A DNA stretch of 64,000 nt, taken from positions 1 to 64,000 of the forward strand of contig JAJXWV010000030.1 in assembly GCA_021781455.1 (NCBI GenBank), written 5' to 3'. Source of the DNA: Acidobacteriota bacterium (lineage in GTDB: Bacteria; Acidobacteriota; Thermoanaerobaculia; Gp7-AA8). Shown piece after piece: positions 14,638 through 19,695 of the stretch; position 1 is the stretch's first letter, and the number at the start of each line of letters is the position of its first letter. Both the position numbers and the translations under genes were made by a program. Below the pieces are notes generated by a model. The model saw only the letters and a program-made list of their open reading frames with translations, searched no databases and had not been told where the DNA came from.

Positions 14638-15585
14638 TTGCTGAACCGACTGATCGCCCTCATCGTCCGCCACGGCGTTCCGTTGGTGGCGCTCAATGTC
14701 TTTCTCGAACAGATCGGCGCGCCCGTGCCCGCCATCCCGTCGCTTCTGGTGGCGGGCGGACTCTCGCGCGATGGCCGCATCTCCTCGACTCACGTCGTGA
14801 TCGCCGCGGTGGCGGCCTCGCTCGTCGCCGACTGGATCTGGTTCGTCCTGGGCCGCTGGCAGGGATATCGAGTGCTCCGGCTGCTCTGCCGGATCTCGCT
14901 CTCGCCCGACTCCTGCGTCCGCGACACGGAGAGCAACTTCGACCGTTGGGGAATGAAGTCGCTTCTGATCGCCAAGTTCATCCCGGGGTTCTCGACGGTC
15001 GCTCCGCCGCTGGCGGGCGCCACGCAGCGAAGCACGCTCGAATTCCTCGTCTATGACGCGGGCGGCGCCATTCTCTGGGCGGGCTCCGCAGTCGCCGCCG
15101 GACGGCTGTTCCACCACGCCATCGCTTCAATCCTGCGAAGACTCGAGAACCTCGGCTGGTGGGCGGTCGTCTTCGTCGTGTCGGCTCTGCTGCTCGTCAT
15201 CGCCGCGAAATGGTGGCAACGGATGACCTTCCTCAAGAGGCTTCGCGTGGCCCGCATCTCGCCCGCCGAGCTCAAGGCGATGTTCGACCGCGGCGAATCG
15301 CCGATCGTCGTCGATGCCCGAAGCGCAGGCGCTCGCAAGCGCGACCCGCGCCGCATTCCCACGGCGTTGTCGGGCGACATCAACGAGCTCAGCCATGACC
15401 TGGCCGGCCTTCCGCCCCATGCCGAGATCATCCTCTACTGCACGTGACCGAACGAAGCGTCAGCCGCCCGTGTGGCGCGCCAGTTGATGGACCAGGGATT
15501 TACCTCCGTCCGGCCACTGGCCGGAGGGTTTGAGGCATGGGTCGATGCCGAGTACCCCGTGGAGGAGCCAGCGGGTAGCGGGTAG
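14638..15585 (+). CDS. DedA membrane protein fused to rhodanese; candidate selenoprotein (in-frame TGA)
   Basis: Residues 1-200 form a DedA/SNARE-associated membrane domain (FLEQIGAPVPAIPSLLVAGG, GRWQGYR, KFIPGFSTVAPPLAG, several TM helices). Residues about 215-315 form a rhodanese domain (VDARS...). A TGA at 15445-15447 (codon 270) interrupts the frame in IILYCT-TGA-PNEASAARVA. Downstream, the same frame stays open for 45 more codons (VARQLMDQGFTSVRPLAGGF, EAW) to a TAG at 15583. In DedA-rhodanese homologues this loop is typically YCxCPNEA, so TGA replaces a Cys exactly. A hairpin with a G near the top of its loop lies 22 nt after the TGA, as in bacterial SECIS elements. Without Sec insertion the product lacks half of its rhodanese domain (269 aa). 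TTG 14638 is the most likely start. The Sec reading is inference; the coding continuity is directly visible. Confidence 0.75.
15463..15480 (+). promoter_or_regulatory. SECIS-like hairpin after the in-frame TGA
   Basis: CGCC (15465-15468) pairs perfectly with GGCG (15474-15477) around the loop CGTGT. The stem extends by GC/GC across one bulged C. The loop G at 15470 is the 23rd nucleotide after the TGA, within the distance range described for bacterial SECIS elements, which need a G among the first loop bases. The stem is short, so this is suggestive only. Confidence 0.4.
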
Positions 15586-15680
15586 CGGGTAGCGGGTAGC
15601 GGGTAGCGGGTAGCGGGTAGCGGGTAGCGGGTAGCGGGTAGCGGGTAGCGGGTAGCGGGTAGCGGGTAGCGGGTAGCGGG
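15571..15680. repeat. Heptamer tandem repeat (GGGTAGC)n
   Basis: About 15 nearly perfect 7-bp copies. The second TAG in the array (15583-15585) is the stop codon of the DedA-rhodanese frame, so the repeat encodes the last residues (AGSG). A GGGTAGC/GCTACCC block recurs at 55518-55615. Confidence 0.95.
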
Positions 15681-15847: not shown

Positions 15848-15918
15848 TAGAAAGCAGAGTCGGCAATCTCCACCGCTGGCCGCTTGGACCGGCACCTCCC
15901 GTGCAATCAAGGACGGCC

Positions 15919-16731
15919 ATGGGAAGTGCCCTGCCAGCAGTGGAGCTGGACGATAACGCCCGTGATTTCTATCGCGAGGCACTCGGTCACCTCGACCGCG
16001 AAGGCGTGCAGTACCTCGTCGGTGGCGCGTATGCCCTGGGGCAGTACACCGGCATCGAGCGGCACACGAAGGACTTCGACATCTTCATCCGGCGCGAGGA
16101 TTTCGCTCGCGCCCGCAGGGTGCTGGAGGCTGCCGGATATGAAACCGAGCTCACCTTTCCACACTGGCTCGGCAAGGCATTTCACGGCGACGATTTCATC
16201 GATTTGATCTTCAGTGCCGGCAATGGAGTGGCCGCAGTCGACGACCTCTGGTTCGAGTACGCCGTGCCGGGACGCGTGCTGGACATGGACGTGCGCCTGA
16301 TCCCGGCCGAAGAGATGATCTGGTCCAAGGGCCTGATCATGGAGCGGGAACGCTTCGACGGCGCCGATGTCGCGCACGTCCTCCGAGCGCTCGGGCCGAC
16401 GCTCGACTGGCATCGCCTGATCGGCCGCTACGGTCCCTACTGGCGCGTCCTGTACTCGCATCTGGTGTTGTTCGGCTTCGTCTATCCCTCGAGTCGATCG
16501 AACGTGCCGGCCTGGGTCATGAACGAGCTCGGCGATCGCATTCGCAAAGAAAGCGCACAACCCGACGCGAGAGAAAAGATCTGCTACGGCACCATGATCT
16601 CGCGCCAGCAGTACCTGAGGGATGTCCACGAGTGGGGATACAAGGACGCGCGCGCCGAGCCGGTCGGCAGCATGACCCGCGAAGAGATCGCCCACTGGAC
16701 CGCGGGCATCGCCGAGGATGGAGCGAAGTGA
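15919..16731 (+). CDS. Nucleotidyltransferase-fold protein
   Basis: The 270-aa protein has the nucleotidyltransferase core: GGAYALGQYTG followed by HTKDFDIFI, which supplies the G-x-A and DxD metal residues, then FIDLIFSAGN as a possible third carboxylate strand. This resembles the MNT/AbiEii-like and DUF6036-like group rather than tRNA CCA enzymes. ATG 15919 is selected because AAGGA lies 8 nt upstream. The stop overlaps the next ATG by 1 nt, and the metallophosphoesterase and EgtB-like genes follow without a gap. The substrate is not known. A role with the phosphoesterase (adding and removing a nucleotide or phosphate) is speculation from context. Confidence 0.82.
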   Translation: MGSALPAVELDDNARDFYREALGHLDREGVQYLVGGAYALGQYTGIERHTKDFDIFIRREDFARARRVLEAAGYETELTFPHWLGKAFHGDDFIDLIFSAGNGVAAVDDLWFEYAVPGRVLDMDVRLIPAEEMIWSKGLIMERERFDGADVAHVLRALGPTLDWHRLIGRYGPYWRVLYSHLVLFGFVYPSSRSNVPAWVMNELGDRIRKESAQPDAREKICYGTMISRQQYLRDVHEWGYKDARAEPVGSMTREEIAHWTAGIAEDGAK

Positions 16732-17537
16732 TGGCCGCCGATCGCGGGAAAGTGCGCATCGCCGCCGTCGCCGACCTCCACGTGAAGAAGACCTCCGGCG
16801 GCGCTTTTCACGACCTGTTCGCGAAGGCGACCGAATCCGCCGACGTCCTCCTCCTCTGCGGAGACCTGACCGACTACGGCGCCCCGGAGGAGGCTCGCGT
16901 CCTGGCCAAAGAGATCACCAGTGCCTTGCGCATCCCGGCCATCGGCGTCCTCGGCAACCATGACTTCGAGACCGGCAAGCAGGACGAGATCGTGAAGATC
17001 CTCACCGACGCCGGCGTGGTCATGCTCGACGGCGATGTGCATGAGGTCCACGGCGTCGGATTCGCCGGAGTGAAGGGCTTCTGCGGCGGCTTCGGCCGGC
17101 GTGGACTCGCCGCGTGGGGCGAAAAGATCATCAAGGATTTCGTTCACGAGACGGTCGAGGAGGCGCTGAAGCTCGAGGCCGCCCTGGCGCGCCTGCGCAC
17201 GCCCCAGAAGATCGCCGTTCTCCACTACGCCCCCATTCACGCGACGGTCGTGGGCGAGCCTCCGGAGATCGAAGCCTTCCTCGGCTCGTCACGTCTGGAA
17301 GAACCAATCGACCGTTATCGCGTCAGCACGGTTTTCCACGGCCACGCCCATCGCGGATCGCCCGAGGGAAGGACCAAGGGGAACGCCCTGGTCCTGAACG
17401 TGGCCATGCCGTTGCTGGTGGCCACGTATCCCGACCGGCCGCGGTTCCGAGTCGTCGAGCTCGACGTGACCGAAGCCGCCTCGCGTAAGGCGACCGTAAT
17501 CCTCGCTTCGCAAGCCGACTTAGAATCATCGCCATGA
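16731..17537 (+). CDS. Calcineurin-like metallophosphoesterase
   Basis: The 268-aa protein carries all five metallophosphoesterase motifs in order: ADLHVKK (D-x-H, about 13), LCGDLTD (GD, about 44), LGNHDFE (GNHD, about 77), LHYAPIHATV (H, about 165) and FHGHAHRG (GHxH, about 203). Metal-dependent hydrolysis of a phosphomonoester or diester is expected; the substrate is unknown. No signal peptide is seen, so it is cytoplasmic. It is joined head to tail with the nucleotidyltransferase (1-nt overlap) and the EgtB-like gene (ATGA overlap), so the three proteins are probably made in fixed proportion. Confidence 0.9.
   Translation: MAADRGKVRIAAVADLHVKKTSGGAFHDLFAKATESADVLLLCGDLTDYGAPEEARVLAKEITSALRIPAIGVLGNHDFETGKQDEIVKILTDAGVVMLDGDVHEVHGVGFAGVKGFCGGFGRRGLAAWGEKIIKDFVHETVEEALKLEAALARLRTPQKIAVLHYAPIHATVVGEPPEIEAFLGSSRLEEPIDRYRVSTVFHGHAHRGSPEGRTKGNALVLNVAMPLLVATYPDRPRFRVVELDVTEAASRKATVILASQADLESSP
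17521..17526 (+). promoter_or_regulatory. Internal -10 box TAGAAT before the EgtB-like gene
   Basis: TAGAAT lies inside the 3' end of the phosphoesterase gene, 7 nt before ATG 17534. It could start a leaderless transcript of the EgtB-like gene independent of the upstream genes. The -35 region is not obvious. Confidence 0.35.
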
Positions 17538-18874
17538 AGCACGCGGCACTTCCCGATGGTGTATCGCGCGAGGGTCTTCTGGAATGGTTCCGCCAGGGGC
17601 GCGAGAGATCGGCGCAGCTCTTCGAGATTCCACACGAAGGTGCCTACTACGAACGACCGATCCCGCTGCGCAACCCGATCGTCTTCTACGAAGGCCATCT
17701 TCCCGCGTTCACCATCAACACTCTCGTGAAGCTCGCGCTGAATCGGCGCGGCATCAGTGAGGACTACGAAGTTCTCTTCGCGCGCGGGATCGATCCCGAG
17801 AGCGAGCACGCCGCCGGCAATGGCGCTTCGCTCTGGCCGTCGCGCGCCGAGGTTCGTGCCTACGCCGCCCAGGCGGACTCGATCATCGAGCGGGCGCTGC
17901 GCGAGGACGATATCGACTGCGACGACGTTCCCCAGCTGCGCGGAGGCGAGGCCGCGCTGGCGATCCTCGAGCACGAGCAGATGCACCAGGAAACGCTGCT
18001 CTACATGTTCCACAACATGCCACACGAAAAGAAGCGCCCGCGTCCTGCGTTCAACGCGAAGACCGCGCCGCAAACCGATGGCTCCAGCGGCAACGAGTTC
18101 ATCCCCATCCCGCGTGGTATGGCGACGCTCGGTGCGGAGCGCGAGGCCATTGGCTTCGGGTGGGATAACGAGTTCCGCTCCCATGCGGTCGACGTGGAGG
18201 AGTTCGCCATCCAGCGCCACAACGTCACGAATGCGGAATTCATGGACTTCGTGCAGCGCGGCGGGTACCAGAACGAATCGCTCTGGTCGGACGAAGCGTG
18301 GCAGTGGTTGCGCTCCACTGGAAAGACTCATCCGCATTTCTGGCTTCTTCGAGACGGCGGATGGTATTGGCGCGGGATGTTCGAGCTGATTGCTCTGCCC
18401 GCCACCTGGCCCGTGTACGTCAGCCATGCGGAAGCCGAGGCGTTCGCGCGCTGGAGAGGCATGCGCCTGCCAACGGAAGCTGAATACCACCGCGCTGCGT
18501 TCGGAACACCGGCCGGACGGGAGCGCGATTTCCCCTGGGGCAACGACATGGCCGACAGCAGCCGCGGCAATTTCAATTTTGCGCATTGGGATCCGCTGCC
18601 GGTCGGCTCGTTTCCGGCCGGCGCGAGCGCCTGGGGCGTCGAAGATCTCGTCGGCAACGGCTGGGAATGGACCTCGACTCCGTTCGACGGCTTTCCCGGA
18701 TTCGAGCCGATGGCGTCCTACCCGGTCTACTCGAACGATTTCTTCGACGGGCAGCACTATGTCCTGAAGGGAGCGTCGCCGGCGACCGCGCGTCACCTCA
18801 TCCGCCGCTCGTTTCGCAACTGGTTCCGACCGACGTACCCGTACGTGTACGCAACGTTCCGCTGCGTCGCGTGA
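17534..18874 (+). CDS. EgtB-like non-heme iron sulfoxide synthase (DinB + FGE-sulfatase domains)
   Basis: The protein is 446 aa, the usual EgtB length. The N-terminal DinB-type helical domain supplies the iron ligands: His in YEGHLPAF (about 57) and the HxxxHxE motif HEQMHQETL (about 147-152). The C-terminal formylglycine-generating-enzyme-like domain (about 190-445) contains PRGMATLGAER, VTNAEFMDFV, RLPTEAEYHRAAFG, DLVGNGWEWT and the ending YPYVYATFRCV. EgtB enzymes couple a thiol to trimethylhistidine with O2. The methyltransferase EgtD is not in this window, so an ergothioneine role is only a family-based suggestion. It overlaps the preceding phosphoesterase gene (ATGA). Confidence 0.85.
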   Translation: MKHAALPDGVSREGLLEWFRQGRERSAQLFEIPHEGAYYERPIPLRNPIVFYEGHLPAFTINTLVKLALNRRGISEDYEVLFARGIDPESEHAAGNGASLWPSRAEVRAYAAQADSIIERALREDDIDCDDVPQLRGGEAALAILEHEQMHQETLLYMFHNMPHEKKRPRPAFNAKTAPQTDGSSGNEFIPIPRGMATLGAEREAIGFGWDNEFRSHAVDVEEFAIQRHNVTNAEFMDFVQRGGYQNESLWSDEAWQWLRSTGKTHPHFWLLRDGGWYWRGMFELIALPATWPVYVSHAEAEAFARWRGMRLPTEAEYHRAAFGTPAGRERDFPWGNDMADSSRGNFNFAHWDPLPVGSFPAGASAWGVEDLVGNGWEWTSTPFDGFPGFEPMASYPVYSNDFFDGQHYVLKGASPATARHLIRRSFRNWFRPTYPYVYATFRCVA

Positions 18875-19005: not shown

Positions 19006-19077
19006 ATTGACATCCACACGATCCGTGACTACATGTACGGTCAGGTGCGCATCGTGCATGCACCGAGAGGTATGGAA

Positions 19078-19695
19078 ATGAAGACCTACAAGGCAAAGCA
19101 ATTCGATCTCTCCGGTCTCAAAGGCATCTCCGACAAAACGCTGGAGACGCACTTCAAGCTCTATGAGGGGTATGTCGCCAACACGAACTCGCTGACGGAA
19201 AAACTTTCCGGCTACTTCAAGAGCGGGAACGTGGAACAGTCGGATTTCGCGGCGTACTCCGAGATCACCCGCCGCCTCGGCTTCGAGTACAACGGCATGG
19301 TGCTGCATGAGTACTACTTCGGGAACATGAAGAAACAGGGGGGCGGCGATCCCGGCTCGAAATTCAAGGCGGCGATCGACAAGAGCTTCCCGTCGGTCGA
19401 CGTCTGGCGCAACGATTTCGTCGGCATCGGCAAGATGCGCGGCGTGGGCTGGGCCATCGCTTATCTCGACCCGATGACGGGATGGGTCTCGAACCACTGG
19501 ATCACGATGCACGAGACGAACAACGTCGCCGGCTTCATCCCCCTCCTGGTCATGGATGTGTGGGAGCACGCCTTCCTGCTCGACTACAAACCGTCCGAGC
19601 GGCCGAAGTACATCGAAGCGTTCCTGTCCAACGTCGACTGGAACTGCGTCGAGCGCCGCGTGCAGCAGGTCCACGTCAGCGGGGACTGGCGATAA
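19078..19695 (+). CDS. Fe/Mn-family superoxide dismutase
   Basis: The 205-aa protein has the metal ligands in order: His in LETHFKLYEGYV, His in GMVLHEYYFGN, and the Asp-x-x-x-His pair in VMDVWEHAFLLDYK. The C-terminal DYKPSERPKYIEAFLSNVDW is the usual SOD ending. The FKLYEGYV.NTN first helix matches a divergent SOD group rather than E. coli SodA/B. ATG 19078 is preferred because GAGAGG lies 7 nt upstream; ATG 19072 and 19033 are in frame. There is no signal peptide, so it is cytoplasmic. A strong terminator follows at 19720. Confidence 0.88.
   Translation: MKTYKAKQFDLSGLKGISDKTLETHFKLYEGYVANTNSLTEKLSGYFKSGNVEQSDFAAYSEITRRLGFEYNGMVLHEYYFGNMKKQGGGDPGSKFKAAIDKSFPSVDVWRNDFVGIGKMRGVGWAIAYLDPMTGWVSNHWITMHETNNVAGFIPLLVMDVWEHAFLLDYKPSERPKYIEAFLSNVDWNCVERRVQQVHVSGDWR

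Follow-up and report, generated by a model that had tools for sequence, protein, structure and literature searches.

A DedA-rhodanese fusion gene with an in-frame UGA in an acidobacterial genome probably encodes a selenoprotein

We conclude, with a probability of roughly 0.93, that a gene fusing a DedA membrane domain to a rhodanese domain is a real selenoprotein gene, in which selenocysteine (Sec) would be inserted at an in-frame UGA codon. The gene lies in the window, i.e., the whole stretch of 64,000 nucleotides analyzed here, which corresponds to C86:1-64000. The genome, that of a soil bacterium of the Acidobacteriota type, comprises 4.88 Mb in 90 contigs and is rated 100% complete. With its TGA read as Sec, the gene translates into 315 amino acids; annotation with the standard code would call it a truncated 269-amino-acid DedA protein or a pseudogene, and its relatives across the Acidobacteriota and Rokubacteria run the same risk of misannotation.

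The reading frame, its relatives and the Sec machinery

Translation bore out that one TGA interrupts an otherwise open frame, as the initial annotation had claimed: the single in-frame TGA is codon 270, set in IILYCT-U-PNEASAARVARQL...RPLAGGFEAW (motif YC-T-U-PNEA; the same context was also rendered as IILYCT-U-PNEASAARVARQLMDQGFTSVRPLAGGFEAW). The 45 codons past it (271-315) indeed finish the domain, RPLAGGFEAW being present, and the frame ends at a TAG (15583-15585). Both Pfam domains score above their gathering thresholds (Table 1) and, since the Rhodanese match covers residues 208-303, the rhodanese domain spans the TGA codon. The TTG at 14638 is a plausible start, since in the majority of close relatives an ATG or GTG is found no more than a few codons away. 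The final codons of the gene, together with its TAG, come from an array of 15.9 perfect tandem copies of the 7-bp unit AGCGGGT (15570-15680); close relatives terminate at about the same place.

Table 1. Positions of the features of the DedA-rhodanese fusion gene in the window.
Feature	Position	Strand	Remarks
Selenoprotein gene (candidate), DedA (VTT)-rhodanese, 315 aa, Sec270	14638..15585	+	TTG start, TAG stop
DedA/VTT domain, residues 38-156	14749..15105	+	PF09335, 44 bits vs. cut-off 33.9
Residues 84-93, with invariant fusion-specific C84 and C93	14887..14916	+	Alignment of fusions
Rhodanese domain, residues 208-303	15259..15546	+	PF00581, 44.6 bits vs. cut-off 22.2; GlpE fold match
Cys268 codon, canonical rhodanese active-site cysteine	15439..15441	+	Alignment, model
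UGA codon for predicted Sec270	15445..15447	+	Frame, codon comparison with relatives
Putative bacterial-type SECIS stem-loop	15463..15480	+	Six pairs, one bulged C; loop CGUGU 15469-15473, G 15470

Of 18 genomes belonging to the family, 12 carry a full-length fusion, and in each of these copies the only stop is a TGA. In total, 32 distinct fusions from Acidobacteriota and Rokubacteria have TGA as codon 270. The same lone TGA recurs at the same codon down to ca. 40–45% identity and is, therefore, not a matter of chance; single-TGA matches are reported down to ca. 30%. In more distant homologues, from the Oxalobacteraceae, Methylophilaceae, Rhodocyclaceae and others, TGC or TGT stands where the window gene has TGA, and the motif YCxCPNEA, which the initial annotation had given for Cys homologues, was recovered from relatives as YCACPNEA, YCSCPNEV, and YCNCPNEA.

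These comparisons bear on two other readings of the stop. A lone TGA in a 90-contig draft assembly might reflect a nonsense mutation, a pseudogene or a sequencing error, for instance a misread TGC. However, dozens of independent genomes share the TGA, every close relative retains the frame past it, the putative SECIS element is selected at the codon level (see below), and the presence of TGA tracks that of the Sec machinery; an error or pseudogene is effectively ruled out by the conservation of the TGA across genomes. Reading of the UGA as Trp or Cys by a near-cognate or suppressor tRNA, or a general change of the genetic code, is rejected as well: in the relatives TGA still serves as terminator, also of genes that are themselves TGA fusions, codon 270 is invariably Cys and never Trp in the homologues without TGA, and a tRNA-Sec(tca) is present in the genome.

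The Sec genes, for which a genome-wide search had been proposed, are all present in the host genome (selA, selB, selD, and tRNA-Sec), with matches above the curated cut-offs throughout. The tRNA-Sec is located at C63:56450-56543 (71.1 bits) and is called SeC with anticodon tca by ARAGORN; selB (C86:73154; 370 bits) lies on the same contig as the fusion gene, ca. 58 kb away, and selA (473 bits) on C75. The selD gene on C30 (L014, G000:C30:12837-13775; 355 bits) contains a TGA in frame close to its start, which would fit a Sec-containing SelD. The genome also holds two candidates for free-standing CxU rhodanese selenoproteins, L079 (G000:C64:8749; YCTUPNEG) and L081 (G000:C43:248.5 kb; YCAULQE), scoring 103.8 and 72.2 bits, respectively, against NF041203, both below the cut-off of that model, and with a SECIS core nearly that of the fusion gene.

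In the Acidobacteriota, the phylum to which named relatives assign the window, the fusion was detected in 70 of 396 genomes at E ≤ 1e-40, which split into a TGA and a no-stop group. Codon 270 was read directly in those loci whose DNA was compared; elsewhere, the presence or absence of TGA was taken from the search tally. G237, whose match stops short of codon 270, was omitted from the comparison with the Sec genes. All 37 Acidobacteriota genomes with the TGA possess selA or selB (selB in 35, selA in 36), whereas only 3 out of 39 with the Cys form possess selA and/or selB (Fisher 1.5e-18, a value that ignores the relatedness of the genomes). With strict filters, tRNA-Sec was found in 28 of the 37 and 3 of the 39, respectively. 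The three exceptional Cys genomes (G059, G084, G406) contain selA, selB and tRNA-Sec, yet their fusion is free of stops. A tree built with the trait columns removed requires at least two changes between Sec and Cys, and one acidobacterial Cys clade branches from within the Sec sequences, a position that would be fitting for a loss of Sec. Because the Fisher test ignores relatedness and the tree supports few independent switches, a one-sided rule is the safer statement: no TGA was seen in Acidobacteriota genomes that lack both selA and selB. In 3 out of 41 TGA genomes tested, selB was not found, i.e., G013, G058 and the Rokubacteria MAG carrying L054, probably due to gaps in draft genomes; among the named genomes, it is present in those of L055, L056, and L068, and in 5 of 16 proteobacterial Cys genomes. 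With this natural Sec/Cys switch, which follows the presence and absence of selA/selB, the contribution of Sec to a CxC rhodanese can be tested directly.

The stem-loop downstream of the UGA

For 60 nt from the UGA, all TGA genes align without gaps. The core of the putative SECIS element, GCC-CG[T/G]-G[T/C]G-GC, occurs in all 34 distinct TGA genes, of which 32 are fusions and two are free-standing rhodaneses, and in none of 26 Cys genes. In this core GCC and GGC close a CGNGN loop, whose G falls exactly 22 nt past the UGA, the distance already given in the initial annotation. The small apical loop with a guanosine that has been described for bacterial SECIS elements (PMC1088965) is thus matched by the core.

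The codons used in the core deviate strongly from those in the rest of the same TGA genes, which served as background. For Arg, CGT is used in 24 of 34 genes (5% in the background) and CGG in 10 (30%), while CGC, at 50% the commonest of the three in the background, is never used; for Ala, GCC is used in 34 out of 34, against 40%. At the Arg position of the TGA genes, the Cys genes carry Lys, Gln, or something else; the protein sequence, therefore, also seems to be under constraint from the RNA element. In the bulged class of stem-loops, which includes that of the window gene, C at position 21 goes with G at position 33 in 7 of 7 cases and G21 with A, C or T33 in 10 of 11 (Fisher 2.5e-4), the pattern to be expected where pairing of either C21-G33 or G21-C34 is required.

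The free energy of the window gene's own hairpin is unexceptional compared to synonymous shuffles (z 0.09). Hairpins of several relatives reach z values of -2 to -3.6, with the signal mainly in the un-bulged class. The case for an element in the window gene consequently rests on codon choice and position coupling. In the un-bulged class 91% of the cells are paired and covariation is weak, since most pairs are invariant. An Rfam scan of the region at a permissive threshold gave no SECIS match. Genome-wide, the pattern of UGA plus SECIS core matched only the fusion gene, L079, and C10:20419; the last was dropped as a further selenoprotein because a control with the reversed pattern likewise gave two matches.

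Active site, DedA half and proposed chemistry

The rhodanese half was assigned from its PF00581 score, its fold and the catalytic Cys with which its active-site loop begins. An AlphaFold2 model made without templates (pLDDT 92, pTM 0.85) places loop 268-273 between a strand (264-267) and a helix (274-285), the position of the active site in rhodaneses. In a profile alignment C268 falls on the loop Cys of solved rhodaneses, and VIA-align superimposes the model on GlpE (1gmx) with Z 14.7 and rmsd 2.1; the VIA-align matches listed cover the rhodanese half only (model residues 198-312). From these comparisons, C268 is the usual rhodanese Cys and Sec270 the second chalcogen of a C-x-U pair. The initial annotation had placed the TGA on a Cys of the active-site loop. 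This holds in that a loop Cys is replaced (CxC to CxU), but the canonical catalytic Cys is C268, which is kept. Both C268 and residue 270, as Cys or Sec, are invariant in 50 aligned fusions. By analogy with other CxU and CxC redox motifs, the expected role of Sec270 is to resolve a persulfide or disulfide formed by C268.

Recoding of UGA competes with termination, and the 269-codon frame ahead of the TGA holds the entire DedA domain. It is conceivable, therefore, that a DedA-only protein of 269 amino acids is the main product and that Sec readthrough acts as a selenium-sensing switch to the long form. Termination at the UGA would, however, cost the protein the greater part of its active-site loop and the C-terminal portion of the rhodanese domain, which is conserved to its end, and a full-length product is always made from the Cys homologues; we consider such a regulated stop very improbable.

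In the decoding that we propose, SelB and Sec-tRNA(Sec), directed by the stem-loop, would read the UGA as Sec, giving an inner-membrane fusion protein with the rhodanese loop C268-T-U270-P-N-E. The catalytic cycle that we infer from fold and motif would start with C268 taking up sulfane sulfur as a persulfide or forming a mixed disulfide. The adjacent Sec270, with its low pKa, would attack the sulfur bound to C268, releasing reduced sulfur or a thiol and leaving a transient Cys268-S-Se-Sec270 bond, to be re-reduced by a cellular thiol or by the invariant pair C84/C93. Whether the protein acts in this way, as a membrane-tethered reductase-type rhodanese for persulfides, disulfides or oxidized thiols rather than as a classical sulfurtransferase, is in our view an even bet.

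The pair C84/C93, in the motif LCxISLxPDSCVxxTE, is present in 50 out of 50 fusions and in three further Cys fusions (Xanthomonas, Burkholderia, Comamonadaceae), and is absent from 12 stand-alone DedA relatives. At the second re-entrant tip, DedA proteins have two conserved basic residues, Arg130 and Arg136 in YghB, that have been linked to phosphate binding (PMC10127716). In local alignments the paralogues L035 and L036 read ARF..GLR at this tip and the fusion AKF..GFS, so that the first basic position is Lys113 and the second is Ser. Given this change and the role of the basic residues, it is uncertain whether the DedA half acts as a flippase, the DedA/VTT family being one of undecaprenyl-phosphate flippases. 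Basic residues around 73-85 and 191-206 suggest, by the positive-inside rule, that the loop with C84/C93 may be cytosolic, as may the rhodanese domain. Tentatively, and with less confidence than in the reductase chemistry itself, we suggest that the DedA half could be a redox partner instead of a lipid flippase, with C84/C93 forming a disulfide relay with Cys268/Sec270. If so, the protein would be a membrane selenoenzyme that couples cytosolic reduction of sulfane sulfur or thiols to a membrane substrate or transport step. The connection between DedA and rhodanese domains has been called unclear (PMC10127716), and the C84/C93 pair offers a handle on why the two are fused.

Alternatively, the CxU domain could handle selenium, either binding it as a perselenide on C268/Sec270 and delivering it to SelD, or detoxifying selenite at the membrane. 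Work cited in PMC8538045 reports in vitro binding of selenium by rhodaneses, whose role as delivery proteins is debated, and the host genome makes selenoproteins, apparently including a Sec-containing SelD. However, 36 genomes that lack both selA and selB retain the fusion in its Cys form, so its core job would be independent of Sec metabolism, and neither the immediate neighbourhood nor the relative L048 shows synteny with selD, selA or ybbB. A role in selenium handling is thus unlikely, although less so than a regulated stop.

Relation to known proteins and genomic surroundings

Rhodanese selenoproteins with a CxU motif have been catalogued before, as "rhodanese-like form 3, CxU" (PMC13188914) and "COG0607 form 2, CxU" (PMC9312934). 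The best NCBIfam match of the fusion is NF041203 (rhodanese_LYCAU, "rhodanese-related (seleno)protein"), which describes the same rhodanese domain with a Y-C-x-U loop, corresponding to YCTU at 267-270. The NF041203 model represents a free-standing domain of 126 amino acids, whereas the window protein is fused to a DedA membrane domain; with 83.4 bits for the whole protein and 78.9 bits in the genome search it stays below the curated cut-off of 115 bits and was, therefore, not filed as an equivalog member. The fusion is a DedA-fused variant of the CxU rhodanese selenoproteins, which gain a membrane-fused member.

The architecture itself is also known. RefSeq entries named "DedA family protein/thiosulfate sulfurtransferase GlpE" from Xanthomonas and Burkholderia have the same full-length layout, with the YCxCPNEx loop and C84/C93 conserved. 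Such Cys fusions differ from the window protein in having Cys instead of Sec at residue 270 and, where their DNA was compared here, in lacking the SECIS core and its Arg. DedA-rhodanese fusions have been noted (PMC10127716), and PA1209 of P. aeruginosa is a DedA-rhodanese protein (PMC12893004). The rhodanese domains of NADH-dependent persulfide reductase and CoA-disulfide reductase-rhodanese (3nt6/3nta, 3icr/3ict) share the fold (Z 12.3-13.9) and are coupled to persulfide or disulfide reduction, but they are fused to a flavin reductase and not to a membrane domain, and no CxU motif is evident for them here.

Among searchable papers, none brings selenoprotein, rhodanese, and DedA together, and DedA is unmentioned in the GOS, Sargasso Sea, deep-Sep, ISME 2016 and review papers. 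A Sec-containing DedA-rhodanese fusion, therefore, appears to be undescribed, while CxU rhodaneses and Cys fusions are already known. The view that a Sec-containing, membrane-linked rhodanese would be unusual consequently stands for the fusion with DedA but not for the CxU rhodanese, which is already curated. Further selenoprotein families were reportedly named by Haft and Tolstoy in 2025.

Downstream of the fusion gene lie NTP_transf_5 and metallophosphoesterase genes (15901-17537), and a similar pair is found downstream of the fusion in L048, with a methyltransferase-like ORF in between. The ORF at 17534-18874 resembles OvoA, EgtB, and SenA (308, 256, and 243 bits, respectively, all below cut-off); a link with selenoneine was discarded as OvoA and EgtB outscore SenA. 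It is followed by an ORF resembling Fe/Mn superoxide dismutase (19033-19695).
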